The position numbers and the translations under genes are program-made. A DNA stretch of 64,000 nt from Lachnospiraceae bacterium (GTDB lineage Bacteria > Bacillota > Clostridia > Lachnospirales > Lachnospiraceae), in contig JALELZ010000021.1 of NCBI GenBank assembly GCA_022768465.1, positions 1 to 64,000 on the forward strand, in the 5' to 3' direction. The first letter of the stretch is position 1. Each line of letters begins with the position of its first letter. Under the pieces are notes generated by a model. It saw only the letters and a program-made list of their open reading frames with translations. It had not been told where the DNA came from and searched no databases. Below, one piece after another: positions 6,239-47,800 of the stretch.

Positions 6239-7720
6239 TTAAGCTTCTATTTCTCCGGCGCTTTGAAGTGCCTTCACCACTGCCGCTGCCTTGTTTATGC
6301 ATTCTTTGTATTCATTTTCAGGGACAGAATCGGCAACAATTCCGGCTCCGCTTCTTACATAAACCTTGCCGCCCTTTTTGTAGGCTATCCTTATGGCAAT
6401 GCAGGTGTCCAGATTGCCGGTGAAATCTATGTAGCCTATCGCACCTCCGTAGATGCCTCGCTTGTTGTTTTCAAGCTCGTTTATCAGCTGGCATGCTCTT
6501 ATCTTAGGTGCGCCTGAAAGCGTTCCTGCCGGAAGCACCGAGCCTACTGCATCTAAAGCGTCCATGTCTTCTCTGATAATGCCTCTTACAGTTGAACCTA
6601 TATGCATTACGTGAGAATATCTTTCTATCGAATGAAGCTTCTCAACCTCTACAGTGCCGAATTTTGAGATTCTGCCGAGATCGTTTCGTCCTAGATCCAC
6701 AAGCATGTTGTGCTCTGCAAGCTCCTTTTCATCCTTTAAAAGTCCTTCCTCAAGTGCTTTATCCTCAGCCTCTGTCTTTCCTCTCGGCCTGGTTCCTGCA
6801 AGCGGAAATGTATGAAGTATGCCGTCCTCCAGCTTTACAAGTGTCTCAGGTGAAGCTCCTGCTACCTCTACATCCTGACCCGAGAAGTAAAACATATAAG
6901 GTGAAGGATTAAGTGTACGCAGCACTCTGTAGGTATTAAGCAGGCTTCCTTCAAACCTTGCCGAAAGAACATTTGAAAGCACTATCTGGAAAATATCTCC
7001 TTCTTTTATGTAATGCTTTGCTTTTTCAACCATCGCGCAATATGCATCTTTATCAAAAAACGGCTTTGGCTCTTCTAAAAGTCTTCCGCCCTTTTCAGCT
7101 TTGGCTTCTCCGTTAAGAATGAGCTCCTTGAGACTCCTTAGTTCTAATTTGGCTTTGTTGTAATTTACCTCGAGCTCCTCAGCACTTTCACCGGTTTCTA
7201 TATTGCATATAAGTATCAGCTTCTGCCTGTAGTTATCAAAGGCTATGACCTTATCAAAAAGCATCAGATCGAAATCCTTAAAGCCCTCCGTGTCTGCAGC
7301 ATCCATATTTAAAGAGGGCTCTGTGTATTTCAGATAGTCATAAGAAAAATATCCTACTAGACCGCCTGTAAACGGCGGAAGATAATCTATCTTTGGACTT
7401 TTATGCTCGGAAAGTATCTGTCTTAGATAGTCCTTAGGGCTGTCTGTCTTTACTGTTATAGAGCCCATCTTCATAACCTTGTCTGCACAGGTTATTTCCA
7501 TTGTCGGATCAAAGCCGAGAAAGGTATATCTGCCCCATTTTTCGGTATTCTCTACTGATTCCAGTAAATAGCAATGTCCCGAAACATTTTTCAGTATTTT
7601 AAGTACTTCTATAGGAGTACGTGTGTCCAACAGGATCTCACAGCTTACAGGTATAAGCTTGTAGCTTTTATCTTTTGCTGCGATTTCTGTTGCCTCTTTA
7701 AGGCTCGGTCTGAAATTCAT
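6239..7720 (-). CDS. trpE: Anthranilate synthase component I
   Basis: TrpE converts chorismate to anthranilate using ammonia from TrpG. The chorismate-binding domain is recognised by AGASPETLVKLEDG, FPLAGTRPRGKTE and AGTLSGAPK, followed by RSGAGIVADS near the end. The 493-aa length is normal. The N-terminal region contains LLES (about residue 53), a candidate for the tryptophan feedback site found in this family. It is the first gene of the operon, downstream of the T-box leader and of two copies of a palindromic repeat. Confidence 0.97.
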   Translation of the reverse strand: MNFRPSLKEATEIAAKDKSYKLIPVSCEILLDTRTPIEVLKILKNVSGHCYLLESVENTEKWGRYTFLGFDPTMEITCADKVMKMGSITVKTDSPKDYLRQILSEHKSPKIDYLPPFTGGLVGYFSYDYLKYTEPSLNMDAADTEGFKDFDLMLFDKVIAFDNYRQKLILICNIETGESAEELEVNYNKAKLELRSLKELILNGEAKAEKGGRLLEEPKPFFDKDAYCAMVEKAKHYIKEGDIFQIVLSNVLSARFEGSLLNTYRVLRTLNPSPYMFYFSGQDVEVAGASPETLVKLEDGILHTFPLAGTRPRGKTEAEDKALEEGLLKDEKELAEHNMLVDLGRNDLGRISKFGTVEVEKLHSIERYSHVMHIGSTVRGIIREDMDALDAVGSVLPAGTLSGAPKIRACQLINELENNKRGIYGGAIGYIDFTGNLDTCIAIRIAYKKGGKVYVRSGAGIVADSVPENEYKECINKAAAVVKALQSAGEIEA

Positions 7721-7751
7721 AAAAACTCCCTTCTGCGGCTCCGCCCATTCC

Positions 7752-7798
7752 TAACATTCGTCATGAACAAATTCAAGCAAGCTTGATTTGTTCCTTCC
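7752..7798. repeat. 47-bp palindromic repeat, copy 1
   Basis: The 47 bp beginning TAACATTCGTCATGAACAAA and ending TTGTTCCTTCC recur exactly at 7878-7924 and 26995-27041. The core GAACAAATTCAAGC-AA-GCTTGATTTGTTC is a near-perfect hairpin with one bulged T. Just outside this copy the 13-mer CTGCGGCTCCGCC (7733-7745) is also repeated at 7821-7833. It lies between the T-box terminator and trpE and is therefore transcribed with the operon. Confidence 0.85.
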
Positions 7799-7868
7799 CT
7801 TTTTATATTTTTTGTTATGCCTGCGGCTCCGCCTCAGGTAATCATGTTTGGAACCGCTTCGCTTGTTC

Positions 7869-7940
7869 CAAACTGATTAACATTCGTCATGAACAAATTC
7901 AAGCAAGCTTGATTTGTTCCTTCCTCATTGTCATAACAAA
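7869..7940. repeat. 72-bp repeat, copy 2, next to the T-box terminator
   Basis: These 72 bp are identical to 26986-27057 by direct comparison. The unit contains the 47-bp palindromic core. In the minus-strand sense it starts within the T-tract of the T-box terminator (TTTGTTATGACAATGAGGAA), so it looks placed immediately 3' of a terminator. A separate hairpin, TTGGAAC...GTTCCAA (about 7851-7871), adjoins it. Confidence 0.9.
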
Positions 7941-7977
7941 AAACGTCCTTGACAGTCTTTTACAACTGTCAAGGACG
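7938..7977 (-). terminator. T-box-controlled terminator of the trp leader
   Basis: The stem CGTCCTTGACAGT/ACTGTCAAGGACG (7944-7977) is followed by six T residues on the minus strand. It lies 16 nt after the T-box sequence, which supplies the alternative antiterminator pairing. Confidence 0.92.
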
Positions 7978-8368
7978 AATAGTTATTTTTATCCGCGGTG
8001 CCACCTTGTTTCACGTTCCTTCAAGGCTGCTTTATTTTCTTGTGACCGCCTGTTCTGATAATGTCTTTTTCTGCTGCTGTGCGGCTTTTTCTTAATCGCC
8101 GGTTAAGCTCTCAATTTATCAGTCTTGCGGACTTTGCAGTCTGTTTATGGATCATGCTCTTTAAGAGATACCATCATATCCCCGACTCTTAACGCGAGTC
8201 TCACGTCGCCTTATACTCGGATGCTGACAGAAGAAATCATCTGTCCTTTCCTTTCCCTGCGCCCTCGGAAGTCCATTCAGCTGAATATTTCATGCTGCGA
8301 TCACACCATCCGCAGCTCTCTCTTATGAAAGGGAAGCAGCCTACTTACTCTCCCTCATCGGTTTTATT
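7938..8368 (-). promoter_or_regulatory. Tryptophan T-box leader (riboswitch)
   Basis: The minus-strand leader begins with the conserved GATGAGGGAGAGTAAGTAGG of T-box stem I. It contains the canonical T-box AGGTGGCACCGCGG (7993-8006) and ends in a strong terminator. In the 3' half of stem I the sequence CTGAATGGACTTCC gives a TGG (Trp) triplet at 8273-8275, the probable specifier. By the known mechanism, uncharged tRNA-Trp would stabilise the antiterminator and allow trpE transcription. The specifier position is inferred from alignment by eye; the downstream trp genes support it. Confidence 0.93.
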
Positions 8369-8374
8369 GCAAGC

Positions 8375-8403
8375 AGAATATCACTATTTCTTATGTATGT
8401 CAA
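8375..8403 (-). promoter_or_regulatory. trp operon promoter
   Basis: Minus-strand TTGACA (8398-8403) and TATTCT (8375-8380) with a 17-nt spacer, placing the start near 8368, just before the T-box stem I sequence. An inverted repeat CAACGC-ATTAAA-GCGTTG (8401-8418) overlaps the -35 box and could be a protein-binding site. Confidence 0.85.
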
Positions 8404-8511
8404 CGCATTAAAGCGTTGATTCGTAAGTATTTTTATTTGTACATGCCGGTTCGAATGAAACATCGACTCGGCACTGTCTTTAACCTATTAGCCTTAAATA
8501 TTTCGAGTATT

Positions 8512-9426
8512 TTATAAAAGCAATGTAATAAGCGGTATCGTCACTATTGAAAATATTGTTGACATTACAACTATATTCGTAGCAAATTCTGCATCCGCAT
8601 TGTATTTATCGGCCAGTATCGATGTAGCCGCTGCCGCAGGCATTGCTGCCATCACAAGTCCGATGCCAAGAACTGTAGCATCGACGTTCATCAGCTTCAT
8701 AAAAGCAAAAATAATAAGCGGGAAAACAACGAGTCTAACTATGGTAAAGCTAAAGATTGGTATGCTAATTATTTTCTTGTAATCAGCATCTGCAAGTATT
8801 GCCCCTATAACAAGCATCGATACCGGTGTTGTGCAGCTTCCCAGGCTGAGAATGCCGTTTGTGATAAATCGAGGTAAACTGATGCCGGATATTAATATGA
8901 TAAGCCCCAGAAACACCGCATCTGCCGCAGGCGTGGTCATTATTGCCTTAAATATATTTACATTCTCATTTTTCTTAAACAATGCGAGTGCAAATGTCCA
9001 CATGCATATTTCACTCGGGATAAAATATACCGAAGTATAGAGCAAACCTGTATCGCCAAAAAGCGCTCCGGCTACAGGTATGCCTATAAACGCTGTATTG
9101 GGAACTATCATGCCGTAATGCATGATTGCTTCTTTTCCCTTGCCGCAGCAACTGAATATCCTGCCTCCGAACAAAACCGTAAGTGCATGCGTCACAACGC
9201 TTATAATAAATATGTCCATGCAATTTTGCATAAGCTCCGGTGTGAAACGTTCCGTACTTAGAAATGCTCCGAGCACACTCGCAGGAAGCATAAGATTTAT
9301 TAAAAGATCCGAAATGCTGCCGCGCGATTTATCTGTGATAACACGAGTCTTATTCAGTATTATCCCTATTACGATCAGGAAAATAAGCTCCAGCTGCTGC
9401 TCGAGCATCCTATGAAAAAATACCAT
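8512..9426 (-). CDS. AEC-family permease
   Basis: The 304-residue protein is hydrophobic throughout, with about ten predicted membrane segments. It matches the auxin efflux carrier (AEC) family in the N-terminal LIFLIVIGIILNKTRVI, the internal NTAFIGIPVAGALFGDTGLLY and the C-terminal VVMSTIFSIVTIPLITLLL. Bacterial members move carboxylates such as malonate or malate, but the substrate cannot be read from sequence. The start is well supported by GGGGGAAG upstream of the ATG. A homologue lies at 62223-63170. The gene is downstream of the MATE exporter on the same strand with a 41-nt gap. Confidence 0.88.
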   Translation of the reverse strand: MVFFHRMLEQQLELIFLIVIGIILNKTRVITDKSRGSISDLLINLMLPASVLGAFLSTERFTPELMQNCMDIFIISVVTHALTVLFGGRIFSCCGKGKEAIMHYGMIVPNTAFIGIPVAGALFGDTGLLYTSVYFIPSEICMWTFALALFKKNENVNIFKAIMTTPAADAVFLGLIILISGISLPRFITNGILSLGSCTTPVSMLVIGAILADADYKKIISIPIFSFTIVRLVVFPLIIFAFMKLMNVDATVLGIGLVMAAMPAAAATSILADKYNADAEFATNIVVMSTIFSIVTIPLITLLL

Positions 9427-9467
9427 ATCTTCCCCCTTTTAATATTTTTTCATTTTAAATATTATTC

Positions 9468-10826
9468 TCAAAAAGGCTTTAATCTTAAAGCTATTATTGC
9501 CGTAATAAGCTCAGTAATCCAGAAGGCATGCCAGACTCCCTCGGGTCCGAATATACGGCTGAGTACAAATGCTGCAGGTATTATGATTATAAGATAACGG
9601 CAAAGAGACAAGATAAGTGAAGTCTTACCGTTTCCTATTCCCTCCAAAACTCCGGAAACCGTTACAGAAAGAGCTGATACTACAAATCCAAAGCAAATGA
9701 TCCTAAGCGCATGTGCTCCAGCTTCTATCGTAGACGCATTATCCGTAAACATTGCAATCAATCTGTCCGGAATCGCCAGGCAAAGCAGCATACCTACTGC
9801 CATTATAGCAGCAGCAAGTCCGAGCGTAAGGAGACTGACATCGCGTACTCTTTTTTCCTCTCCGGCACCATGGTTATAGCCGACTATAGGTCTTATTCCC
9901 TGAATGATTCCGTTAGCCGGAAGGTAAAGGAAGGTCTGGAGTTTATAATAAACTCCGAGAACCATAACATAGCTCTGAGACCATGCCGCAAGTATAGCAT
10001 TTAATGACGATATAAGTATAGAAGGAAGTGCAAGATTTAATGAAGCCGGAATGCCTACAGAATATATCCTGAATGCCACAGATTCCCTGCTTGTGAGATC
10101 ATTTTTAATGACCGACGGCCTCAGATATTCCTTAAGTCTGATATCTACAGGAAGAGGCTTTATATATCCTGCTGACACGTAGAGCACAAATGCAATAAAC
10201 TGTCCGAGTCCTGTCGCAAGCGCTGCTCCCTCTATGCCCATTTGCGGAAACGGCCCTATACCGAAAATAAGTATAGGATCCATTATTATATTGAAAATGG
10301 CTCCTGCCAGCATACAGAGCATGGTCTCCGTCATTCGTCCCGCAGCCTGAAGCACCTTTTCTGCATGCATACCCATACTGAACGCAGGTGAAAAGAGGAA
10401 CACTATAAATGCATATCTGAAGCCAAGGTCTACTATCTCTTTGTCAGATGTAAACATTTTGAGAAAGGTGCCGACTATGGCAATGCAAACAGCACCTAGT
10501 ATAAGTCCGTGCATGAACGAAAAAATATATCCGAGAGTTGTTGCGGCATCCGCTTCTCTTTTTTTCTGTGCTCCTAAGAAAAAGGATATTGCGGCGCAGC
10601 TTCCGACGCCAAAGCCTATTGCAACGGCATTTACAAGATTTTGCAGTGGAAATACAAGTGAGATCGCAGTCATCGCATTCTCACTGATCTTTGCAACAAA
10701 ATAGCTGTCAACAATGTTGTAAAGTGCATTTACCATCATTGACAGGACCATCGGCAATGACATGGATAAGACAAGCCTTGTGATTGGCTGTTCCTTCATA
10801 AATGTCTGGTTGTTTGTATTCGACAT
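9468..10826 (-). CDS. MATE-family efflux transporter
   Basis: A multidrug and toxin extrusion exporter with about twelve membrane segments. Family signatures include PMVLSMMVNALYNIVDSYFVAKI near the N-terminus, a second-half repeat beginning ASLNLALPSILISSLNAILA, and NGIIQGIRPIVGYNHGAGEEKRV. I start it at MSNTNNQTFMKEQPITRL, preceded by AGGGAG, rather than 36 codons upstream. That gives 452 aa, normal for the family. Two hairpins lie in the upstream region. The ligand is unknown. Confidence 0.9.
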   Translation of the reverse strand: MSNTNNQTFMKEQPITRLVLSMSLPMVLSMMVNALYNIVDSYFVAKISENAMTAISLVFPLQNLVNAVAIGFGVGSCAAISFFLGAQKKREADAATTLGYIFSFMHGLILGAVCIAIVGTFLKMFTSDKEIVDLGFRYAFIVFLFSPAFSMGMHAEKVLQAAGRMTETMLCMLAGAIFNIIMDPILIFGIGPFPQMGIEGAALATGLGQFIAFVLYVSAGYIKPLPVDIRLKEYLRPSVIKNDLTSRESVAFRIYSVGIPASLNLALPSILISSLNAILAAWSQSYVMVLGVYYKLQTFLYLPANGIIQGIRPIVGYNHGAGEEKRVRDVSLLTLGLAAAIMAVGMLLCLAIPDRLIAMFTDNASTIEAGAHALRIICFGFVVSALSVTVSGVLEGIGNGKTSLILSLCRYLIIIIPAAFVLSRIFGPEGVWHAFWITELITAIIALRLKPF

Positions 10827-10849
10827 GCTTTGTTTTCTCCCTATATATA

Positions 10850-10921
10850 AAAATCGCCGCACAGTCATCCGTATTTCAGAATCACTGTGTGGCGAAAAGT
10901 AATGCCGCAGCCCGGCGGCAC
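10850..10921 (-). terminator. Tandem hairpins between the lysR remnant and the MATE gene
   Basis: On the minus strand TGCCGC-CGGGCT-GCGGCA is followed by CGCCACACAGT...ACTGTGCGGCG and then ATTTTTATATA. The second hairpin plus T-tract looks like an intrinsic terminator. It may end transcription from the lysR remnant or act as an attenuator for the MATE gene. No known riboswitch class was recognised. Confidence 0.55.
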
Positions 10922-10970
10922 CAGAAAAATCCACAAATTGTTTTAGTATTAAAATTCCATGATTATTCTA

Positions 10971-11577
10971 TCAGCTCTGATTCCTATAATCAATATAAGG
11001 AATAAATCTTTTAAGCGCTGCCGATTGTGCGCCTCCGCTTTTTCTCGCAATACCTATAGTTCTGAAGGTTGGTTTGCTGAGAGGCTTTATAACGATATCA
11101 TACGGTAAACGCTTAAGTATCAGCCTTGGAAGTATGCTTATCCCTATACCCTGCTCAACCATAGACATGATCGTATAGTCATCCCAGGTGGTAAATCTTA
11201 CATTAAGCTTTAAATCATTTTCCTTAAGAAAGTCAGCAATCTCAACTCTTCCGTTTTTCTCAAGCAAAATAAACGGCTCAGCCTCTAACTTTTCTATCGG
11301 AAAGCATGGCTGCTCATCACCGTCAAACGGGTGATCCTTCGGAATTATTGCAACAAATTCATCCTTTTCAAGCTCTTTTGTAATAAATGCATCGCGCATC
11401 GGAAGCTCTACAAAACCAAAATCTATCCTGCCTTCATTTATCCATGCTTCGATTTCATCGAAATCTCCAAGAAGTATCTCATACTCTATATTTGGATAAT
11501 CCTTATGAAAACGCTTTATTATCCCCGGCAGCCAGTTCTGCGCCGCACTTGCAAAGCTGCCCGTTGCCGCTGTATCA
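10971..11577 (-). pseudogene. LysR-type regulator, 3' remnant (effector domain only)
   Basis: The frame stays open upstream of the Met chosen in the ORF track. It reads IDTAATGSFASAAQNWLPGIIKRF... through VEQGIGISILPRLIL to the stop, which is the co-inducer-binding domain of a LysR-type regulator. About 200 residues remain. The N-terminal helix-turn-helix and linker helix (about 90 residues) are missing. Homology ends abruptly near 11577, exactly where an eamA remnant begins on the other strand. LysR genes often lie divergently from a transporter they control, so one deletion removing both 5' ends and the shared promoter is the simplest explanation. The product would lack DNA binding. Confidence 0.85.
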
Positions 11578-11760
11578 ATGCTTGGTTATCTTGAGCCGCT
11601 TTCATCAGTTATATTTGCAGTGATCCTGCTGCATGAGACAATGACTCCTGCAGAGCTTATCGGCGCAGTTTTGATTCTTTCAGCCTCTGCCGCATCAGAG
11701 CTCCTTCCTAAAAAAGCTCCTGCAGTAAATCGAAATATTGCTGTGCAAAAGTCACTTTAA
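11578..11760 (+). pseudogene. EamA/DMT-family transporter, 3' remnant
   Basis: The 60-residue frame LGYLEPLSSVIFAVILLHETMTPAELIGAVLI matches the last two membrane helices of EamA (drug/metabolite transporter) proteins, which are normally about 290 aa with ten helices. The first four fifths are absent. No ribosome-binding site or promoter of its own was seen. It abuts the lysR remnant head to head, as the other half of the deletion scar. Confidence 0.85.
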
Positions 11761-11880
11761 GTTCATCTTTAGTTTAAATCATTAAAAATATCTGTCGATA
11801 TTAACATATGCTTTATATAATTAATTTATTTGTGCTAAAATCATTACGTTTTTCAGATAAGCACAAAGTAAAGGAATTGA

Positions 11881-13845
11881 ATGTTGACAGGAGTATTTAA
11901 TAAGCGTGATACCGAAGTGACGGTATCTGCTGCCGATAAAAGCAAAACCGCTTTAATAAAAAAATTTATAGGAATTCTTGGGCTTATTATTATGCCCGTT
12001 GTTTCCTATGTTCTTTTTGAATCCGTAACTGGAAATCTCCATTCTATAATTTGGCAAAAGGCAATTCTCAACATATGCTTCAGCTATTGTATTTATCTGC
12101 TGCTTTTTGCCGTTTCAGGAACGACTCGTTTCAGTATTCCCTTTGCCTCGATACTGCTTGTTATTATTTCGATGGCAGAGGCCTTTGTTGTGCAGTTTAG
12201 AGACAGGCCTATCATGTACTGGGATATCTTAGCCTTAAAAACCGCGCTTACTGTAACTCAGAACTACACCTTTGTTTTGTCTGAGCAGATGATAAAGTCA
12301 ATTGCGGTAACAGCAGTATCAAATATCATACTCTTTTTCTTTCCGTTTAGTCTCAAAGGCCTTAAGCAAAGACTTATCGGATTTGCTTCATCTGCTGTTT
12401 GCATAGGCTGCTTTATATCATTTTTCTTCAGCTATCTCATGCCAACAAAGAATTATGAAATAAATGTTTGGGATCTCAACAGCACCTATGAAGAAGGCGG
12501 TTATCTTCTTTCTACGGCGATTTCTGCCAAATATGTTGTTGCAAAAGCCCCTTCTGGCTACAGTCATGCTAAGCTCGAAGAGATAATAAATGCTGTTGAA
12601 TCCAATCAATCTTCAGCTGAAAATGCAGATAGCTCTGAATTTGCTGAAATGACATATTCTGACAATGCTTCAGCTCAGGGTAATATTTTAACCGTCGCGG
12701 CAAATACCGGCATTCAGCCTGTCAACATTATCTGCATAATGAATGAAAGCTTTTCCGATCTAAGTACTGCCGGAGAATTTACTACTAATACCGACTATAT
12801 GCCGTTTTGGCATAGTCTCACTGAAAATACTATCCGCGGAAGTCTCTGCGTCCCGGTTTTTGGTTCCATGACTAGCAATACAGAATACGAATTTCTGACC
12901 GGAGATTCAATCTCCATACTGCCGTTTGGCTCAAATGCATATCAGTTTAATGTCAATTCCGGCGCAACCTCTCTTGTAAGCACACTCAAGGATCAGAGAT
13001 ATTACTCTGTTGCAATGCACCCGTATCCAGCTGAAAACTGGAACAGAAATACCTGCTATAAGGACTTCGGTTTTGACGAATTTTATGATATTGAATACTA
13101 TGAGGGCAGTGAAGAATTAAGAAACTATGTCAGTGACAAGGCTGACTTCGATAAGCTGATAGAACAGGTTGAAAATAAGTCTGATCCGAATGATAAGCTG
13201 TTTATATTTAATGTCACCATGCAAAATCACGGCGGCTACTCACAAAGCTTTGACAATTTCGAGCAGGAAGTGTGGCTTACAGGCGATATGGAAGGAAAAT
13301 ATCCTCAGACTGACCGCTATCTTTCATTAGTAAAGAAATCAGATGAGGCTTTTGAATATCTGCTCGACTACTTTAAACAATGCGATGAACCGACAATGAT
13401 AGTTATGTTCGGTGATCATCAGCCTGCCGTAGAGGATGAGTTTTTTGATGAGCTTGCCGGAATGCCAAGCTCAGAGGTTCCTACCGCCGATAAGCTTATA
13501 TGGTATCAGACACCTTTTGTGATATGGACAAACTATGAACAGCCTTCGGAAGATCTCGGAAAGCTTAGTTCTATGTATCTTTCCTCATATATACTTAAAG
13601 CTTCCGGCCTTAGTATGACTCCTTACAACAATTTCCTTTTATCACTTTCTGAGGATGTACCGGTCATTCATCCAAATGGCTGCTATGATTCAAATGGAAA
13701 CTATTATTATTGGGGTAAAGCTGAATCAGAAAGATGCCCTTACGGAGAAGAAATCCTTGACTATAAATATCTGGCTTATAACCACAGTCTGGATTCAAAG
13801 AAATATACTAAAGCCTTTGTCATTGATGACAACAGTGACGATTGA
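11881..13845 (+). CDS. LtaS-family phosphoglycerol transferase/sulfatase-like membrane enzyme
   Basis: The 654-aa protein has an N-terminal membrane domain of about five helices (residues about 28-190) followed by an extracellular alkaline-phosphatase/sulfatase-fold domain. Family landmarks are NIICIMNESFSD with a metal-binding Glu, GSMTSNTEYEFLTG with the catalytic Thr, MQNHGGY and MFGDHQP. This matches lipoteichoic acid synthase-like enzymes, which transfer glycerol phosphate from phosphatidylglycerol to surface polymers. Whether it makes a teichoic acid or modifies another glycan cannot be told. AAAGGA precedes the ATG by 6 nt. It stands alone, with a terminator at 13926-13962. Confidence 0.88.
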   Translation: MLTGVFNKRDTEVTVSAADKSKTALIKKFIGILGLIIMPVVSYVLFESVTGNLHSIIWQKAILNICFSYCIYLLLFAVSGTTRFSIPFASILLVIISMAEAFVVQFRDRPIMYWDILALKTALTVTQNYTFVLSEQMIKSIAVTAVSNIILFFFPFSLKGLKQRLIGFASSAVCIGCFISFFFSYLMPTKNYEINVWDLNSTYEEGGYLLSTAISAKYVVAKAPSGYSHAKLEEIINAVESNQSSAENADSSEFAEMTYSDNASAQGNILTVAANTGIQPVNIICIMNESFSDLSTAGEFTTNTDYMPFWHSLTENTIRGSLCVPVFGSMTSNTEYEFLTGDSISILPFGSNAYQFNVNSGATSLVSTLKDQRYYSVAMHPYPAENWNRNTCYKDFGFDEFYDIEYYEGSEELRNYVSDKADFDKLIEQVENKSDPNDKLFIFNVTMQNHGGYSQSFDNFEQEVWLTGDMEGKYPQTDRYLSLVKKSDEAFEYLLDYFKQCDEPTMIVMFGDHQPAVEDEFFDELAGMPSSEVPTADKLIWYQTPFVIWTNYEQPSEDLGKLSSMYLSSYILKASGLSMTPYNNFLLSLSEDVPVIHPNGCYDSNGNYYYWGKAESERCPYGEEILDYKYLAYNHSLDSKKYTKAFVIDDNSDD

Positions 13846-13925
13846 CATTTTTATTATATCAACATGACCAACATCAAAATTTAGATTGTCATTTTTTATT
13901 TTTACCGAGAATTCTATAATCTATG

Positions 13926-13962
13926 AAAAAGTCTGTCGTACATAGATATGGCAGGCTTTTTT
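13926..13962 (+). terminator. Terminator of the LtaS-like gene
   Basis: Stem AAAAAGTCTGTC/GGCAGGCTTTTTT about 80 nt after the stop. The rest of the stretch to 14217 is AT-rich and contains two similar segments, GCTGCTTTAATAATTG and GCTGCTTTATTACTTG. No clear promoter or riboswitch was found there. Confidence 0.75.
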
Positions 13963-14217
13963 CAAATTCTTTATAAATTACGGCTGCTTTAATAATTGTA
14001 AATGTTTTTTAATTGCAGCTGCTTTATTACTTGCAGCTCACAGTCCATGCTGTATCAAATCAAACAAAAAACAGTTCAGAACTGCAATAATATTTTTTTT
14101 ATACAAAGTTTTTCAAAATATTTGTTAATTTTTTTTATCTTAAAACATTGAGGTTTTTAATAATTAGTAATATAAATAATTGTATACAAAAAACTATTGT
14201 CACTAGGGGGAAAAGAA

Positions 14218-15720
14218 ATGGTTAATTTTTTAAACTCACTCAATAACTTCCTTTGGGGTCTGCCGCTTCTTATTGTGGTAATCATGATAGCGCTGTACTT
14301 TACAGCAAGATCAGGATTCTTCACTGTATCACATTTCGGTTATATCTTAAAGAACACGCTCGGTAGTCTCACAAGTAAGGAGGCCAATACCAAAAAGGAA
14401 GGCCAGGTTTCACCGTTTGAGGCTGTCTGCGTTGCTATCGGAGGTTGTGTTGGAGGTGCCAACATCTCAGGTGTTGCTACAGCTATCGCAACCGGCGGTC
14501 CTGGTGCTATTTTCTGGATGTGGGTATATGCTTTCTTCGGAATGATGTTAAAATTAGCTGAGATTGCTCTCGGCTGCTACTATCGTTCACAGGATGAGAA
14601 GGGTAACTACTACGGCGGTGCTCAGTACTATATCGAAAAAGGTATAGGTCGTGAAATGGGCAAAACAAAATTTGCTGCTGCTTTCAGTGTTCTTTTCTGC
14701 CTTGCATTCATCTTCCAGGCTATTCAGGGTTCTCAGGGCTATAACATTGCAGAGACTCTTAATATGGCCTTTGGCTGGAACATGATCGTTGTTACTTTAG
14801 TCTACTCTCTTTTCGTAGTATGGGTAATATGGAATGGTACTCCTCATATCAGTATGGTTGCTTCTAGGGCCGTACCTTTCATGTGTATCATTTATCTTTT
14901 AGGCGGAATCGCGATAATTATTTTTAATATTAATCAGGTTCCTGCAGCTATTGTAAGTATCTTTAAGGACGCATTCACAGGACATGCTGCTGTCGGCGGA
15001 TTTATCGGAGCATCAGTTGCACAGGCTATCAGACAGGGTGTCAACAGATCTGTAAACTCTAACGAAGCCGGCATGGGTTCATCACCATTGGTACACGGTT
15101 CTGCCGATACAGTACATCCTATTCGTCAGGGTATGTGGGGATCATTCGAGGTATTCATTGATACTCTTGTTGTATGCTCAATAACAGCTCTTGCTGTAGT
15201 TACTTCAGGCGCATGGACTTCAGGTTCAAAGGGTGTAACTCTTACTATTGAGGCATTCTCAACAGTATTCGGACCATTTGCTCAGTACTATATCGCTATA
15301 CTTATTATCCTTTTCGGCTTCACTACGACTGCAGGATATTTCGTATACTATCAGAATCTTATTGCATACCTGCTTCGCAAGAACCCTAAGGTAAGAGACA
15401 GAGTTATCACCTTCTTCAAGCTGTGGTTCCCATTATGGAATGTGCCTATCGTTGCTTTCATTACACTTACAAACAATGATGCCGAGCTCTTCTGGACTAT
15501 TGTTTCAATTGTTACAATATTCCCGACAATTATAAACCTGATTGCACTTGTGCTTTTACACAACAAGTTCTTCACAATATTCAGGGATTACAAGGCTCGC
15601 TACTTCGGAGAAGGTACTCCTGAGCTTAAGTATGTATTCTACGAGGATGATCCTGCTGTATTCGCAGAAGAGGAAGCAATCAGAAAAGAAGTTCGCAGAA
15701 TAGCTGCAGAACACAAATAA
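14218..15720 (+). CDS. Alanine/glycine:cation symporter (AGCS family)
   Basis: A 500-residue sodium- or proton-coupled amino acid importer with about eleven membrane segments. AGCS signatures include AVCVAIGGCVGGANISGVATAI, GGPGAIFWMWVYAFFGM and RSVNSNEAGMGSSP, the last carrying the conserved substrate-site Asn/Glu region. I start at MVNFLNSLNNF, preceded by a strong TAGGGGG, not at the TTG seven codons earlier. The substrate is probably alanine or glycine by family. It is monocistronic and ends at a bidirectional terminator. Confidence 0.93.
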   Translation: MVNFLNSLNNFLWGLPLLIVVIMIALYFTARSGFFTVSHFGYILKNTLGSLTSKEANTKKEGQVSPFEAVCVAIGGCVGGANISGVATAIATGGPGAIFWMWVYAFFGMMLKLAEIALGCYYRSQDEKGNYYGGAQYYIEKGIGREMGKTKFAAAFSVLFCLAFIFQAIQGSQGYNIAETLNMAFGWNMIVVTLVYSLFVVWVIWNGTPHISMVASRAVPFMCIIYLLGGIAIIIFNINQVPAAIVSIFKDAFTGHAAVGGFIGASVAQAIRQGVNRSVNSNEAGMGSSPLVHGSADTVHPIRQGMWGSFEVFIDTLVVCSITALAVVTSGAWTSGSKGVTLTIEAFSTVFGPFAQYYIAILIILFGFTTTAGYFVYYQNLIAYLLRKNPKVRDRVITFFKLWFPLWNVPIVAFITLTNNDAELFWTIVSIVTIFPTIINLIALVLLHNKFFTIFRDYKARYFGEGTPELKYVFYEDDPAVFAEEEAIRKEVRRIAAEHK

Positions 15721-40699: not shown

Positions 40700-42505
40700 C
40701 TATATCTTTATCCACATAGCCGGCCTTATACAATTACTTGTATAATTCACAAGAAATCCTATATTAACAGCTGTTCCGTAATAATCGACATTGGACGCAT
40801 GTACCTCGTCCGAGCCCGGGGTTCTGAGCCACCATGCCGTATAACCTGTACCCGCCACATAAGCTCTTTTTCCGAGTGCTTCCTTGCCTGCCAATGCCTG
40901 TCTTTTAAATCGATCATCAAAATAGAACTCAGCCTCGTCTATATTTAATAAAAAGACCTTGTCTTTTGTATCATTTCCACCGTTTACCCTGTTAAAATAG
41001 TTATCCGGATTTCTGAGCGGAGTCTCAAGTATATGCTCACGTTCATCCTCTGTAAAAGCTGTCTTTATAAACTCCTCATTAAGCCATTTCCTGATAGAAC
41101 TCGTTTCCCAGGTAGTTTTTTCATAGCTTGCATTATAATTTTTAGAATCTATGCACTCTTTTGTAATAATAAGTGCCTCGTTATCCACTGTTGAGAGCAC
41201 TTCCCACACTATCGGGCTCTTGTCTCTGCCATAATGTCCGAAGCTAAGCTCCCCATCATCAGATATAATATTATCCTTTGTACCCGTTTCTTCTGCTTCG
41301 TCATCAAAATCAAGCTCAAGCTCCACGAAAATATCCTCAGCCTCTTTTTTTAAATGCTTTTTCTTATACTCTAAGAATGCCGCAATGCAGTTGTGACTCT
41401 TATTTTCAATAGCCAGCTTAAGATATTGTTCTATCCTTTCTTCACTGCAGTCATTTCCCAAAAATCCTATGCAGTCAGCATCATCCTGAATTATATATAC
41501 AGGCATCAGGTCTCTTTTTCGATAGAAATACTCAGCATTATGAAGGCCGCGTCTCAGTTTTCCCGCACTGATATGAGCTCCGCAGAAAGGACAGGTTAAT
41601 ACCTCTTCTGCAATAGCCTTAAGCTGCGATTTTATCCCGCAGAAGCTGATTTCCTTACCGCATGAACCACAGCTGAAAATGTCTCCGTCCGGCATATCAC
41701 AGTTAAGCTCAGAAATACACAGCTCTCCTTTTTTAACGCTATAGCTGTATACAGCACCAAAGGTCTGTTCCTCCGGATCAACTATAACCCCGGGTCTGTC
41801 ACCCTGTCCCTGCTTAACTATGCTTTCTACAGTTATCTCAAAGTCGCCCTTTTTTACTGCCGCCTTCTTCTTTGCTATAGCTATCATCTGCTCAAGAATA
41901 AACTCTGTTTCCTCATGAGCTCTGGTGTAGTTATTATCATATCCGTAATGGCTGTATGCAACAAGCTTTACGCTGTGAAGCCTCGTATCATCTTCAAGGC
42001 GCTTTGCAGCGCCGTCAGCATCCATAATAAGCTCTATGCGCTCTATATCATGCGCCTTGCCTTCGGCTGAATTCCTGGTGCTGCCGTTATCGCCTGCCAT
42101 ATTATTAGTTTTTTCTAATTCATCAGTAAGCGAGATTCCGATTTCCTCTCCCGGATTAAGCCATATCCTTATATTGCCGTTATCACCGCAGGCGCCGTCT
42201 ACTTTGCTTATGATAGTGCTAAGATCAGACTGCTCATCTGCTGAGATCTCTGCACAGCAGATTCCGGCATCCGAAAGCACCTTGCTGGCAATACTCTCTT
42301 TTTTGTCGGACCCCGCTATATGATCACTCTCAAGCCTCGCACCTTTTATCAGCTGCTTAAGTCTCACTATATCGGCATCTCCGCCTGTCAATATTGAAAA
42401 CTCCTTAACATTATCTCCGCCAAGATATATTGTCAGATCTATCTCGCCTTCGGAGGTCTCTCTCAAACCGAAGGCTGTATCCCTGTTATAATGTGAAAAA
42501 TCCAT
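40700..42505 (-). CDS. Zinc-ribbon protein with C-terminal DUF6273 domain
   Basis: A 601-aa protein in three parts. The N-terminal 270 or so residues are unrecognised, with a predicted acidic alpha/beta pattern (IDLTIYLGGDNVKEFSILTGGDADI). A central zinc ribbon has CGSCGK and CPFCGAH (about residues 285-325). The C-terminal 170 residues match DUF6273: FGHYGRDKSPIVWEVLS, TWETSSIRKWLNEEFIKTAFTEDE, WWLRTPGSDEVHASNVDYYG and IRPAMWIKI. DUF6273 resembles a lectin/FGE-like fold by eye. The gene lies 37 nt after a MoxR ATPase gene, which follows a vWA gene, so it may be their effector or substrate-recognition partner. The function is unknown. Confidence 0.72.
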   Translation of the reverse strand: MDFSHYNRDTAFGLRETSEGEIDLTIYLGGDNVKEFSILTGGDADIVRLKQLIKGARLESDHIAGSDKKESIASKVLSDAGICCAEISADEQSDLSTIISKVDGACGDNGNIRIWLNPGEEIGISLTDELEKTNNMAGDNGSTRNSAEGKAHDIERIELIMDADGAAKRLEDDTRLHSVKLVAYSHYGYDNNYTRAHEETEFILEQMIAIAKKKAAVKKGDFEITVESIVKQGQGDRPGVIVDPEEQTFGAVYSYSVKKGELCISELNCDMPDGDIFSCGSCGKEISFCGIKSQLKAIAEEVLTCPFCGAHISAGKLRRGLHNAEYFYRKRDLMPVYIIQDDADCIGFLGNDCSEERIEQYLKLAIENKSHNCIAAFLEYKKKHLKKEAEDIFVELELDFDDEAEETGTKDNIISDDGELSFGHYGRDKSPIVWEVLSTVDNEALIITKECIDSKNYNASYEKTTWETSSIRKWLNEEFIKTAFTEDEREHILETPLRNPDNYFNRVNGGNDTKDKVFLLNIDEAEFYFDDRFKRQALAGKEALGKRAYVAGTGYTAWWLRTPGSDEVHASNVDYYGTAVNIGFLVNYTSNCIRPAMWIKI

Positions 42506-42542
42506 GGCTTAAGCCCTTGTCCCCCCCATTGTTTTCTATCAT

Positions 42543-44123
42543 TTAAATACCGAGATCGCTAAGCTCCGAAATAATCTCCTGCTGACGCTCGTAGAATAAC
42601 AGCTCTTTATTGTGTGCAAAATATTCATCACAGCCGTAACGACTTATAAACTGAGCTGAAAATTTATTCTTCGTGAGTTCAGTGACGAATATAAGTATCT
42701 CCTGCCCGTCTGTAAATGCCGCATCACAGAACTCAAAGGCATTTTTAAGCTCATCCTTGGTTTCTGCTACCTGTTCCTTAAACGATCCGAGCCTGCTTGC
42801 GTAATATGTCTTTAAGATCCCGATCGCCTCTTTTTTATCAGTAATACCAGCAAGCATTGACTGAAGCTCCTTTAAAGCAGCTATCGTAAGGTCATATTCT
42901 CTGCGCTTTTCCTCTGACAAGCCTGCTGCCTTTTCTATTTTGCTCTTTTCATTAATAATACTGTCCGCAAACCTTTCTGCTATGTCTGCCGGAAGTATTG
43001 CTGCATTTTCGCCTGCTAATGCGCCTCCCATATTAGCTGAAAGCGAAGGGTCGGCTGAACGCATATCTGCACCGGCTCTTTCCGTAAGCTCTTCCTTTAT
43101 GTCTCCGATATGATTTTTCAGCGCCTTCATAACATTTTCAGTTATTATGATATCTCTGACATCTCCGGTCACTCCGTAAATGATAAGCCCCAGCAGTGAA
43201 TGCCTCTCATCAAACTTTGCTTCTTTTGCACGCTCTACAATGCCCGGCGCAGCATTTCCCTTAAGGATATCAGGTATCTGATAATCGCTTCTGTACTTTG
43301 CAAAAAGCTCATAGTATGCTGCAAAATCCTCTGCAATATGCGGCTCCTGAATATACTGAGCTATCAGACTGAGATCTACCTTTATGTCATTCTTTTCATA
43401 GTATGTGATCATTTCGCTTAAGTCTTCCCAACCTCTTGCGGTAACAAAGAATTTACCCTCAACTGTAGTCTCGACCTTATAGAAATTACTCTTTTTTATC
43501 TCAAGATAACTTAGTATTGACTGATGAACTCTCTTATTCAGAGCATACTCCTGCCATGCCTTATAATCAGGCTCAACATCTATTCTCTTTAATCTGTCCC
43601 AGGTCGCAATGTCATATTCCCGAACAGATTTATTGTACTCCGGCGGATTTCCGGCAGTCACCACGATCCATCCGTCCGGCACTCTGTGGCGCCCGAATAT
43701 TTTATACTGCAAAAACTGCAGCATTACAGGTGCCAAGGTCTCCGAAACGCAGTTTATTTCATCAAGAAAAAGTATTCCTTCCTTCTTTCCGCTCTGCTCT
43801 ATCATATCGTATACCGATGCTATTATTTCACTCATGGTATACTCGGACACTTCATACTCAGTTCCTCCGTAGTTCTTCCTTGTTATAAACGGAAGTCCGA
43901 GCGCTGATTGTCTGGTGTGGTGAGTCATCGAATATGATACAAGTGCAACGCCAAGCTCCTGTGCTATCTGCTCCATTATGGCTGTTTTTCCTATGCCAGG
44001 AGGGCCCATAAGAAACACCGGGCGCTGACGCTCTATCGGAATAGCATAGTTTCCGAATTCATCTCTTGTAAAATATACCGTCATGGCATTTTTAATCTGT
44101 TCTTTTGCATCCTTTATGTTCAT
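42543..44123 (-). CDS. MoxR-family AAA+ ATPase
   Basis: A 526-aa protein. The N-terminal 300 residues are a MoxR-type AAA+ module: Walker A FLMGPPGIGKTAIMEQI, Walker B GILFLDEINCV, sensor 1 VVTAGNPPEYNKS, and an arginine-finger region near YDIATWDRLKRIDVEPD. The C-terminal 220 residues are helical, rich in Glu and Lys, without a named domain. MoxR ATPases act as chaperone-like partners of vWA proteins; one is encoded 116 nt upstream on the same strand. Together they should form a metal-dependent remodelling pair. Confidence 0.88.
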   Translation of the reverse strand: MNIKDAKEQIKNAMTVYFTRDEFGNYAIPIERQRPVFLMGPPGIGKTAIMEQIAQELGVALVSYSMTHHTRQSALGLPFITRKNYGGTEYEVSEYTMSEIIASVYDMIEQSGKKEGILFLDEINCVSETLAPVMLQFLQYKIFGRHRVPDGWIVVTAGNPPEYNKSVREYDIATWDRLKRIDVEPDYKAWQEYALNKRVHQSILSYLEIKKSNFYKVETTVEGKFFVTARGWEDLSEMITYYEKNDIKVDLSLIAQYIQEPHIAEDFAAYYELFAKYRSDYQIPDILKGNAAPGIVERAKEAKFDERHSLLGLIIYGVTGDVRDIIITENVMKALKNHIGDIKEELTERAGADMRSADPSLSANMGGALAGENAAILPADIAERFADSIINEKSKIEKAAGLSEEKRREYDLTIAALKELQSMLAGITDKKEAIGILKTYYASRLGSFKEQVAETKDELKNAFEFCDAAFTDGQEILIFVTELTKNKFSAQFISRYGCDEYFAHNKELLFYERQQEIISELSDLGI

Positions 44124-44239
44124 GTATCTTTCCTCGGAATACCAAAAATTTCCTTTAACTTTATGATTACGTTTATAATTCCTTTAGTCACACTCTGATT
44201 TTTACCGTAATGCTTACACTAATTTGTCATTGTCACAGC

Positions 44240-45907
44240 TCAGATCTCTTCGCTCTCAAGAACCAGCTTTATAGCCCAGACCGGCACATCAGGATTGTTA
44301 TATTCATCATCTACAAATACAAATGCAGTTTGATATTCAGGCTGATGCGCCGGGAATACTCCGTATCCGTCAGTAAAATAAATAAGCCCTTTCAGATTTG
44401 TAAATTCATGCTTCTTTATACGTTCATCCACATATTCAAAAACAGGTCTGAAATCCGTGCCGCCGAAGCCCTTTAGCTCCATGTGTTCAATATAATCATC
44501 GAATTCCTCAGGTGAGGTGATTTTTTTCGCTTCCTGGATCTCTGCATCACACTGTATTATGTGAATATTTATCTTCGAGAAAAAACTCTCTCTTTCGCTT
44601 AGTATATTATAGGTCTTTGTCACAAATTTCTGCACCAAGGGTCCGGATACGGAACCTGAGGTATCTATGGCAATGACAAATTCCTTTATCTTCATTTCTT
44701 CTTTATACTCTAACGGTTCAATAAGCGGCATTTTCTCATAAAGCTCCATACCGTAGGTATAAAAAATGTAGTCAAATTCATCATCATTTACCTTAAGTGT
44801 TTCTCCAAGCGCCGCAAAACGTCTTAAGAATGCCGAATAATCATAGCGCTCACGATTTACGGCATTGAGGCTCTGCATAAGTCCGCCCTTTTTATCTCCG
44901 ATTTCCTTTGAAAAGGTCTCAAGATCCGTCTGCATTTCTTTAGCTATATCATCCCAATGCTTCTCAAGATCACTTCTGCTCTCGTCCGCATCATCCGGCG
45001 ATGCTGCCTCATTTAAGGCATTTTTTTCATCATCCCCATCTTCAGGCTCTTCCTTTTGCTCTTCTTCGGATCTATTGGTATTTTCTTCTCTTCTTTCTTC
45101 TTTCTTTTCCTCGGAGCGGCTGTCATCCTCATGCCGCTTATCATCAGCACCTTCCTCTCGCTTTTCGACAGTGCTTTCGGCATCGTCGATTTCTTCCTTA
45201 GGTGCATACCAGTCTGTATGATCATCGTTGGTAAAGAGCGACATCATACGGATATATTCTTCTGTTGTTGGTGGATTTTCCTTTAGATAATGGTAGATCT
45301 TCTCAGCTGACATAAGCTTAACTTCTGCTCTAAGCTTTTCTATATCTGCCTGCTGATTTTTTTCTCTGATAGCTTTGGTACAGCTTAAGTGAAGATCGGT
45401 AATAGCATTTTCTACTGCAATATCACATGCCAAATTCCATAGCCCCTGATCCATCTCAGGGCCTACAAAAGCATGATGAAATACGCAGTGAAATATCTCA
45501 TGGAGATAATCTCTTGCCGGGTTTTCCCTGCACTCTCTGTAGCGCTTAAGCACATACACCGGATCATAGTAAAGATTCTCTCCGTCAGTAGCCATTGTTC
45601 CCTGATACTGTGAAAGCCTCAGGCTGCCGATTGCAGAATCAAGAAATCTCAGATTTACCTGCAATGTATTTCTTGCAAGCGTTATCACCTCACGTCCGAG
45701 TCTGTCTATTTTAGCATTAGTTTCGTCAAGAGCTCTTTGAGCCTCATCATATGAACGATGAGCGCCGCAGCCTCTGAGGCCCAGAAATGCATTCTGCGCC
45801 TCATGGCAGTCAAGCTGAGTACCGTCTCTGTGTCCTCTTACTATGCCGTCTTCAATGTATGCACCGGCACCGCCGTTATTATCATATTGTGTATTAATAT
45901 CCGACAT
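44240..45907 (-). CDS. vWA protein with metallopeptidase-like N-terminal domain
   Basis: 555 aa. An N-terminal domain resembling the DUF2201 putative metallopeptidase unit has HEIFHCVFHH (about residues 136-145), an intact HExxH zinc motif. An extremely acidic, Glu/Arg-rich linker spans about 225-320. The C-terminal VWA-like domain has the MIDAS motif VIAIDTSGSVSG, then GFGGTDFRPVFEY and YFTDGYG. By family, such proteins pair with MoxR ATPases. It is the first gene of the three-gene unit. No clear Shine-Dalgarno precedes the ATG, so the start is less certain than the frame. Confidence 0.82.
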   Translation of the reverse strand: MSDINTQYDNNGGAGAYIEDGIVRGHRDGTQLDCHEAQNAFLGLRGCGAHRSYDEAQRALDETNAKIDRLGREVITLARNTLQVNLRFLDSAIGSLRLSQYQGTMATDGENLYYDPVYVLKRYRECRENPARDYLHEIFHCVFHHAFVGPEMDQGLWNLACDIAVENAITDLHLSCTKAIREKNQQADIEKLRAEVKLMSAEKIYHYLKENPPTTEEYIRMMSLFTNDDHTDWYAPKEEIDDAESTVEKREEGADDKRHEDDSRSEEKKEERREENTNRSEEEQKEEPEDGDDEKNALNEAASPDDADESRSDLEKHWDDIAKEMQTDLETFSKEIGDKKGGLMQSLNAVNRERYDYSAFLRRFAALGETLKVNDDEFDYIFYTYGMELYEKMPLIEPLEYKEEMKIKEFVIAIDTSGSVSGPLVQKFVTKTYNILSERESFFSKINIHIIQCDAEIQEAKKITSPEEFDDYIEHMELKGFGGTDFRPVFEYVDERIKKHEFTNLKGLIYFTDGYGVFPAHQPEYQTAFVFVDDEYNNPDVPVWAIKLVLESEEI

Positions 45908-45955
45908 GTTTTTATATTTATTTTACAAAATATTTTTTAGCCTTTTCCCTTTTGA

Positions 45956-45985
45956 ATTATACAATTTTATCGGCTTTTCTGTAAA
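45956..45985 (-). promoter_or_regulatory. Promoter of the vWA-MoxR-DUF6273 unit
   Basis: Minus-strand TTTACA (45980-45985) and TATAAT (45956-45961) with an 18-nt spacer, about 50 nt before the vWA gene. Confidence 0.65.
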
Positions 45986-46061: not shown

Positions 46062-46274
46062 CTATGCTTCAAATATCTCGTCTGTAGTGCTGAAAAAGCG
46101 GTTAAACTCATCCGTATACGCTCCGGCGCTTTTATCTATGGCTTTTTCAAAGCCGACAAGCGCCGCAAACGGTGCAAACTGAGCAGCCCTGTCATGCCTG
46201 GACATATGCTTTCTCGCATAGGATACATGATGCGGCAAAAGAATAATATCCTTATAGTCATTAGCTGCATTCAT
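46062..46274 (-). CDS. Small protein coupled to a Y-family polymerase (YolD-like position)
   Basis: A 70-aa protein with the motif MSRHDRAAQFAPFAALVGFEKAI, found in small proteins next to UmuC-like genes in clostridia. It occupies the place of the YolD-like partner of bacilli, although the sequence relation to YolD is not clear by eye. The ATG overlaps the polymerase stop (ATGA), so translation is probably coupled and amounts linked. A role in regulating or binding the polymerase is an inference. Confidence 0.72.
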   Translation of the reverse strand: MNAANDYKDIILLPHHVSYARKHMSRHDRAAQFAPFAALVGFEKAIDKSAGAYTDEFNRFFSTTDEIFEA

Positions 46275-47800
46275 GCTTTGTGCCCTCCTATCTGTGCGTT
46301 GCGTTCCCTTGCTGTCGCACCCTCCAGGAAATTCATCCCCCTTAGTACAGCGTTTTTACCGTATCTTTTCTTTATACTGAGTATAGATTCCTGTATGCGC
46401 GTATCTTTTTCTGTATCAATATCTCCTGATACATCTATATTTTTAAGCCTGTCAGCTTCCGCGTCAAAAAGGCCAATTTGCCTGAAGGCATTTTTTTCCT
46501 GTGCCGTTGATTTTCCGGCTGTATGATTAGCAACGACGCACATCCGTCTTATCAGAAGCTTTCGATCAACTATATCATCAAAAAGCTCTGTAACGGCGGC
46601 AAGAAGCCTGGCTGATGATGCAGTATATGCTCCTGTATTGATGCTTCCATGAGCTGATTTCGGAATCACTCTGCCATAATGATCTACCGTAAGCTCGCCT
46701 CTATAGCTCTTCATGATTTCTTTATCCTTTGCATTCTCTGTATCATAGCCCACAGTAAGCACTAACTGATTGCACACAAGTCCTTTCTCCACTAATTCAA
46801 GTGCTAATGCATCCGTCATTTCCCGTATAACTATCTTTGCTTTTTCAAATGTATAAGGTTCAGTTAATACCTGTCCGGAGCTTAGGCTTGAGGATTCGGG
46901 TACATAGCTTTTTATATCCGATATGGTACACGGTTCGTAGCCCCATGCATGATCAATGAGCAGCTCTGCATTAATACCGAAAAGCCTGTATAAAAGCTCT
47001 TCATTATAAAAATCTGCAGGCTTTCCCATAGAACATCTGGCTATATCCCCCATCGTATAAATTCCATATGCAGATAATCTTTTCGATATGCCTCTGCCGA
47101 CTCTCCAAAAATCAGTAAGCGGTTTATGCGTCCACAGTTTCTGTCTATAGCTAAGTTCATTAAGCTCTGCTATCCTGATACCGTTCTTGTCAGCTTTTAT
47201 ATGCTTTGCAACTATATCCATAGCTATTTTGCACAGATAAAGATTTGTACCTATGCCTGCCGTAGCTGTAATGCCCGTAGTCTCCAAAACATCTGATATA
47301 AGAGTCTTCGTAAGCTCTTTTGCAGTACAGTCATAAAGCCTGAGATACGAAGTAACATCTATAAATACCTCATCGATCGAATATACATGTATATCCTCCG
47401 GTGATATATATTTTAAATATATCCCGTATATTTTACTGCTTACTTCTATATAGCGTGCCATCCTCGGCGGTGCAATGATATAATCAACAGCTAATTCAGG
47501 GTTTTCATAAAGCTCCAAAGCTTTGTACGAGCTTCCTTTAAGCACATGTCCCGGCACAGCACTTCGCCTTTTGGCATTTATCTCCTTTACTCCTTGAACG
47601 ACTTCAAAAAGTCTGGCTCTGCCTGAAATGCCGTAGGCCTTCAGCGTTGGTGTGACTGCAAGACAAATTGTCTTATCCGTGCGGCTGCTGTCAGCCACCA
47701 CGAGATTGACTTCGAGCGGCTCAAGTCCTCTGTCTACACACTCTACCGATGCATAAAAAGACTTAAGATCAATAGCTATATAAACCTTCTCTCCATCCAT
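46271..47800 (-). CDS. Y-family (UmuC/DinB-like) error-prone DNA polymerase
   Basis: A 509-aa translesion polymerase. The catalytic motif YIAIDLKSFYASVEC opens the palm, VYSIDEVFIDVTSYL carries the second acidic pair, and TATAGIGTNLYLCKIAMDI is the conserved fingers/palm segment. WRVGRGISKRLSAYGIYTMGDIA is the helix-hairpin-helix. The little-finger domain follows, then a C-terminal extension of about 90 residues. GGAGG precedes the ATG. It is expressed from a promoter whose spacer is filled by a palindromic operator shared with the divergent XRE/ImmA genes. Confidence 0.92.
   Translation of the reverse strand: MDGEKVYIAIDLKSFYASVECVDRGLEPLEVNLVVADSSRTDKTICLAVTPTLKAYGISGRARLFEVVQGVKEINAKRRSAVPGHVLKGSSYKALELYENPELAVDYIIAPPRMARYIEVSSKIYGIYLKYISPEDIHVYSIDEVFIDVTSYLRLYDCTAKELTKTLISDVLETTGITATAGIGTNLYLCKIAMDIVAKHIKADKNGIRIAELNELSYRQKLWTHKPLTDFWRVGRGISKRLSAYGIYTMGDIARCSMGKPADFYNEELLYRLFGINAELLIDHAWGYEPCTISDIKSYVPESSSLSSGQVLTEPYTFEKAKIVIREMTDALALELVEKGLVCNQLVLTVGYDTENAKDKEIMKSYRGELTVDHYGRVIPKSAHGSINTGAYTASSARLLAAVTELFDDIVDRKLLIRRMCVVANHTAGKSTAQEKNAFRQIGLFDAEADRLKNIDVSGDIDTEKDTRIQESILSIKKRYGKNAVLRGMNFLEGATARERNAQIGGHKA

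Follow-up and report, generated by a model that had tools for sequence, protein, structure and literature searches.

A third protein with a conserved anchor domain beside a MoxR ATPase and a DUF2201 vWA protein: a candidate three-part machine of Lachnospiraceae

Introduction

What does a third gene do beside the genes for a MoxR AAA+ ATPase and its von Willebrand factor A (vWA) partner? This question is raised by a locus in the Lachnospiraceae bacterium assembly GCA_022768465.1, within positions 1 to 64,000 of contig JALELZ010000021.1; this whole stretch of 64,000 nucleotides is called the window below. On the reverse strand, to which all coordinates of these genes and their parts refer, the locus holds in this order a gene for a predicted vWA protein (44240–45907, 555 amino acids (aa)), a MoxR gene (42543–44123, 526 aa, AAA_5 in Pfam at E 1.1e-9), and a gene for a third component, C3 (40700–42505, 601 aa); 116 and 37 bp separate the genes. 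An earlier note on this DNA had placed three same-direction genes here, and both the open reading frames (ORFs) and Pfam agree. We propose, with a little more belief than doubt, that the trio encodes a cytosolic three-part MoxR-vWA remodeling machine whose client would be chosen by C3.

Results

The first two genes form a MoxR AAA+/vWA pair, which the earlier note had described as having an HExxH motif in the N-terminal part of the vWA protein; Pfam and the sequence (H136-E137-I-F-H140, 45488–45502) bear this out. In the MoxR protein, the Walker A (GPPGIGKT), Walker B (LFLDEIN), and sensor 1 (AGNPP) motifs are all intact, and conservation of the core motif residues across 82 relatives is 95% or higher. 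Its only solved relative by sequence is midasin, and when the three proteins were scanned with Pfam, bpMoxR matched only below threshold (26.0 bits vs 27). The vWA protein of the adjoining gene matches both Pfam models of the DUF2201 “putative metallopeptidase” family (PF13203 and PF09967), with DUF2201_N at residues 78–364 (E 1.7e-12; 48.0 bits against a cutoff of 23.2) and the vWA-like DUF2201 domain at residues 411–550 (E 1.5e-15). Its AlphaFold2 model (predicted local distance difference test (pLDDT) score of 80) matched integrin I/vWA folds. The vWA domain contains the metal ion-dependent adhesion site (MIDAS) motif D415-T-S-G-S419 (44651–44665), and D415, T416, S417, S419, T484, and D485 are invariant across 44 relatives.

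DUF2201 was found in 168 of 299 Lachnospiraceae genomes, sampled at about one per genus, and in 22 of 250 genomes across the phylum, where outside the family only one locus (L154) is close to the window's type. About 100 DUF2201 loci were taken and their ORFs called; 89 of these are of the main type. At eight loci, the gene behind MoxR encodes a leucine-rich-repeat protein of the BspA type with a conserved end of ∼100 residues. A profile derived from this end of the protein over three rounds describes a conserved helical domain of ∼95 aa, here called the anchor, and the first version of this profile revealed the domain again at most other loci, in genes immediately preceding the vWA gene. In all, the anchor marks 74 of the 89 main-type loci, being part of a nearby third protein at 66 and fused to the vWA or MoxR protein at 8. 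The 66 third genes lie upstream of the pair (48, of which 44 directly before the vWA gene), directly behind MoxR (13), or nearby on the other strand (5). The earlier note had made its reading depend on the third gene being conserved beside the pair in related genomes, as it is at these 74 loci. Among the 15 main-type loci lacking an anchor, four are truncated where their contigs end (L074, L114, L116, and L124), and three (L042, L068, and L127) have an unlinked anchor gene elsewhere in the genome.

The occurrence of the anchor follows that of the pair. When a profile of 25 anchors, from which C3 and its sister protein (described below) had been excluded, was used to scan 64 whole genomes, the anchor was present in 42 of the 46 that hold a main-type pair and in none of the 18 that do not (Fisher p 2e-12). 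In the source genome (a 1.86-Mb assembly in 33 contigs, 96% complete), C3 was the only match to this profile (E 2.3e-5). A second profile, built from 65 anchors without C3 and the sister, L033, gave C3 a score of 21.2 bits compared with a best score of 5.3 in 2000 shuffles. The match spans residues 329–387 of C3 (41345–41521) and corresponds to the last two thirds of the domain. Because C3 carries the anchor, it belongs to the same system; its gene lies beside the pair, and the vWA protein of the window falls in the main-type clade. Taken at the level of sequence, the locus encodes the ATPase core motifs, a MIDAS, a metal-type site, and an anchor-bearing third protein. Since the anchor is fused to the vWA protein in several genomes, the comparison also suggests that the anchor binds the vWA protein. 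A search of the anchor against solved structures returned nothing significant.

Most third proteins differ from C3 in the rest of the chain. Domains found in the 66 third proteins were LRR_5 (58 proteins), DUF6273 (2), and a CobW GTPase domain (1), so leucine-rich repeats plus an anchor make up the usual third protein, and C3 is a rare variant. C3 lacks the usual, although not universal, LRR_5 part, and no leucine-rich-repeat match to it was found in Pfam. Exactly at the C terminus, 37 of the 66 third proteins have the sequence F-[DES]-[LIF], compared with 3 of 1067 other ORFs at the same loci, and these tails are often preceded by basic residues (RKRRFEL, RKKTFDL). Other third proteins have an acidic-aromatic end, such as LSGLDDFDF. 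C3 itself ends in DUF6273 and not in F-[DES]-[LIF]. In C3 and its sister, an acidic-aromatic stretch (VELELDFDD and FALSDDWDDD) follows the anchor and is in turn followed by DUF6273; the stretch in C3, AEDIFVELELDFDD (41300–41341), is positioned like the C-terminal tails of relatives and is probably their counterpart.

Three further anchor proteins may be recorded here. In L112 (G288), anchor, vWA, and MoxR are fused as one 935-aa ORF, and in L137 (G263), anchor and vWA share one 1168-aa ORF. An 848-aa anchor protein at L133 (G024 C52, 7167–9713) has no MoxR-vWA pair nearby; that genome has three pairs elsewhere.

The sister protein comes from G012, an uncultured Lachnospiraceae metagenome-assembled genome, where the trio recurs in unchanged order with its genes 5 and 3 bp apart. 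Its C3 counterpart is full-length, in the same place, and 52% identical; over aligned residues, window and G012 are 69% identical in the vWA protein, 74% in MoxR, and 61% in C3. Among 99 relatives, including 24 other genomes of the genus, a full-length C3 was found outside the window only in G012. A scan of GTDB contigs gave the same answer with two short peptide patterns, which are blind to distant relatives. The closest vWA relatives of the window have other partners: a leucine-rich-repeat protein with an anchor (L113), a leucine-rich-repeat-DUF6273 protein with a marginal anchor match (L053), and a CobW-leucine-rich-repeat protein with a weak anchor match (L060). Because these partners differ, the recognition part has been exchanged within one subclade.

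C3 is, as the earlier note described it, a protein with a CxxC ribbon, a DUF6273 domain, and an unrecognized N terminus; it has 601 residues, two CxxC pairs, and a Pfam match to DUF6273. Residues 1–328 (41522–42505), which include the zinc ribbon, belong to no recognized family, and for the N-terminal 330 residues there was no Pfam or NCBIfam match above the cutoff and no solved relative. The ribbon (C279/C282 and C305/C308, 41582–41671) matched zinc-ribbon families only marginally or below threshold; its four cysteines are conserved in G012. The C-type-lectin-like DUF6273 domain (40706–41251; Pfam residues 442–600) scored 104 bits against a cutoff of 23.5 (E 8e-30). No hydrophobic segment of transmembrane strength was found in C3. 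Structure prediction, which the earlier note had put forward as a check, served one end of the protein: the DUF6273 end was modeled with high confidence (pLDDT >90 in most blocks), and the remainder, including the N-terminal part, with low confidence. In Foldseek, the only significant solved match of the DUF6273 model was the IgA peptidase of Thomasclavelia ramosa (9qa6), whose N-terminal domain is DUF6273, and the matches among viral structures include phage DUF6273 proteins. Published models assign DUF6273 to the C-type-lectin fold and locate phage variable regions at the DUF6273 end (PMC10743442, PMC11792537). The tree of DUF6273 did not resolve the origin of the C3 domain; grouping with the DUF6273 of L053 was not rejected (p 0.35).

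DUF6273 also ends proteins of other kinds in these bacteria. At two loci of the same genus, L035 (G011) and L034 (G006), tandem TIR_2 proteins have a zinc-ribbon-like motif near the N terminus and a C-terminal DUF6273, and some of them also hold TPR. L036 (G031 C32) is a row of four NACHT/STAND-like proteins of 1130–1367 aa ending in DUF6273, three of them with pentapeptide repeats; the row resembles a family of immune-type receptors. Because it ends TIR and NACHT proteins as well as C3, DUF6273 is plausibly a binding domain used in several settings. The phage tentaclins and Faecalibacterium prophage proteins that are diversified by diversity-generating retroelements have the same C-lectin-like domain; in contrast to them, C3 has no reverse transcriptase in its genome, no hypervariability that we saw, and no phage tail context. 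Such diversification of the C3 domain was rejected on finding no reverse transcriptase in the source genome or in G012.

The metal-type site of the vWA protein departs from that of most relatives. H136, H140, H145, D162, D228, and H230 are conserved among main-type vWA proteins. The glutamate of HExxH, at position 137, is missing in 83 of 85 main-type proteins, where M, L, I, T, V, or S mostly stands instead, and is present only in the window and G012. At position 166 (45410–45412), four residues past D162 in the alignment of main-type proteins, Glu is found in 81 of 85. The 13 other DUF2201 proteins have Asn there in 12 cases, and 12 of the 13 keep HExxH. The main type has lost one glutamate and has another, whereas the proteins of the window and G012 combine both. 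In a tree of 98 vWA proteins, from which the column of position 137 had been removed beforehand, the window pair is nested within the fully supported main-type clade of 85 rows. Because this clade otherwise lacks the glutamate, HExxH was probably lost and then regained in the lineage of the window. The column drifts, so the return of Glu at 137 may also be due to chance, and two species are too few to judge. From the alignment we infer that positions 137 and 166 could be functionally equivalent. A Foldseek search of the vWA model for a zincin fold listed matches that were all to the vWA part.

A second DUF2201 type (L041, L044, L051, L058, L073, and L090) has a MoxR of ∼370 aa followed by a vWA protein of ∼400 aa, with HExxH in all those aligned. 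This pair sits behind a gene of 900–1220 aa, which in L051 encodes a helicase with weak DrmD-like matches, and a 265-aa DUF6273 gene adjoins the L051 locus.

Upstream of the vWA gene of the window lies a promoter-like site, TTTACA-18-TATAAT (45985–45956, 11/12 matches), which is the best reverse-strand site in the region; no terminator-like site was found on this strand in the region. One promoter for the trio is plausible, and vWA, MoxR, and C3 form an operon-like row. The neighbors in the window are, by Pfam, DeoC, an ABC transporter, a Y-family polymerase, and CvpA. The Y-family (ImpB/MucB/SamB) DNA polymerase gene lies at 46271–47800, just upstream of the module, and the same polymerase is found three genes upstream of the pair in L074 (G045). 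SOS control by way of this neighbor was considered and dropped, as the window has no exact GAACNNNNGTTC site.

Discussion

In the machine that we propose, the MoxR ring would drive movement of the vWA protein at the expense of ATP. Acting as an adaptor, the third protein would grip either of the two with its anchor and aromatic/acidic tail and hold the client with its remaining part. This client-holding part would be the leucine-rich repeats in most Lachnospiraceae and, here, the new N-terminal domain, the zinc ribbon, and DUF6273. The outcome would be a forced shape change of one endogenous client, probably the loading or reactivation of a metal or cofactor. Because HExxH is present besides Glu-166, cutting of the client would be possible in this lineage alone. 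The earlier note had cast the DUF6273 protein as the selector of the target and, given the conserved anchor-bearing third protein, this appears to be the best reading of the sequences.

An endogenous client is favored by the ordinary neighbors and by copy number, the source genome holding one DUF2201 and one DUF6273. Of 16 close pairs compared, 13 show higher conservation in the recognition part than in the anchor; two others, including that of the window, differ by two points the opposite way, and one, with 49 residues only, by ten. Metal or cofactor work is indicated by L060 (G252 C1, about 2.46 Mb, 4350–14833), in the window's subclade, where the third protein begins with a CobW/G3E GTPase domain and also has leucine-rich repeats and a weak anchor, and where the trio is flanked by URO-D methyltransferases, a B12-binding protein, and RACo. 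This corrinoid methyltransferase context gives the metal-loading role raised in the earlier note circumstantial support, from one locus.

Several observations weigh against this proposal. Eight main-type loci have no anchor gene that we could find. The anchor match of C3 is modest, at 21 bits, and does not take in the first third of the domain. A free C terminus cannot be needed in C3, since its tail is internal. The link to metals or cofactors comes from a single relative, whose anchor match is weak, and the presence of DUF6273 at the ends of TIR and NACHT proteins in relatives fits a role in conflict.

A conflict, or immune-like, system is less probable than the remodeling machine but is a serious possibility. 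Here, a cytosolic DUF6273 would sense an invader molecule, and the MoxR-vWA pair would relay the signal or cut a target. MoxR-vWA ternary systems with C-lectin sensors have been proposed as conflict systems (PMC7159879, PMC10907252). Consistent with this, DUF6273 ends TIR proteins with zinc-ribbon-like N termini in the genus (L034 and L035) and NACHT/pentapeptide proteins in the family (L036), the recognition part has been exchanged inside the window's subclade, and the DUF2201 pair has a patchy distribution in the genus, being present in 15 of 25 genomes. However, PADLOC gave no match for C3 or the vWA protein and only generic AAA matches for MoxR, and the neighbors are of the kinds named above. 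Between the window and G012, DUF6273 and the vWA protein are conserved to the same degree (68% vs 69%), the leucine-rich-repeat part is not faster evolving than the anchor in most close pairs, and, in the absence of a reverse transcriptase from both genomes, there is no sign of diversification. These results speak against the stress or conflict role that the earlier note had considered.

The ternary conflict systems of Kaur et al. 2020 likewise have a third component, in some cases with C-lectin domains. None of their third components VMAP, iSTAND, FtsH, or beta-propeller had a Pfam match in our three proteins, and their criterion of defense genes or effectors nearby does not describe this locus, by either PADLOC or its neighbors. 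That study does not mention DUF2201, and we did not find leucine-rich repeats in it as part of a system. Its systems are those of multicellular bacteria, whereas the present one is mostly confined to Lachnospiraceae.

It is quite unlikely, judging from the alignments, that the module is an ATP-driven protease that cuts through an active HExxH in the vWA protein and is fed with substrates by C3. HExxH and the residues H145, D162, D228, and H230 are in place in both C3-bearing species, and other DUF2201 types retain HExxH. Yet the machine seems to work without this glutamate, since the 83 main-type relatives that lack it mostly have the same three-part layout; HExxH is seen in just two main-type sequences, in a column that drifts freely enough for Glu to have returned by chance. 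Proteolysis, which the earlier note had offered as one function of the module, does not hold as a general statement. It is very improbable that C3 has nothing to do with the pair and sits behind it by accident: C3 is itself known from two species only, but G012 keeps the same trio and order with gaps of 3–5 bp, which argues for more than a chance neighbor, and C3 has the anchor by which third proteins of the system are recognized.

The remodeling machine has likenesses among known systems. NorQ-NorD, CoxD-CoxE, and RavA-ViaA likewise join a MoxR AAA+ ATPase to a vWA protein dedicated to it; we know of no third component for any of them. The present system differs from these in the DUF2201_N domain of its vWA protein and in its conserved third protein, with an anchor and a leucine-rich-repeat or C-lectin part. 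NorQD and CoxDE act in metal-center insertion (PMC13036017, PMC7159879); NorQD, which has been studied well, inserts iron by twisting a linker of NorD, and the C terminus of NorD contacts the post-sensor-1 loop of NorQ (PMC13036017). Midasin/Rea1 likewise unites AAA+ with a MIDAS vWA, as a single giant eukaryotic protein working on pre-ribosomes (PMC7159879). Our search, outside which most subscription papers lay, found no published description of a DUF2201 system or of MoxR with leucine-rich repeats. The system is apparently undescribed, although MoxR-vWA machines with a third component are already known.

A bolder version of this proposal is speculative and, with all its parts, unlikely. It would make the system a fifth kind of MoxR-vWA ternary machine, found mainly in Lachnospiraceae. 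Its vWA protein would be a former metallopeptidase whose glutamate moved from HExxH to DxxxE, giving a new metal chemistry, and its recognition subunits (leucine-rich repeat, CobW-leucine-rich repeat, or C-lectin) would be exchangeable and plugged in by the anchor. In the lineage of the window, the return of HExxH together with a C-lectin subunit would have yielded a targeted protease.

In a broad sampling of a dominant gut family, over half of the genomes have DUF2201, mostly as the machine described here. A single AAA+ core with exchangeable recognition subunits would reveal how MoxR machines switch clients, and the glutamate that was lost, shifted, and returned provides a testable case of a pseudo-peptidase that may be active again.

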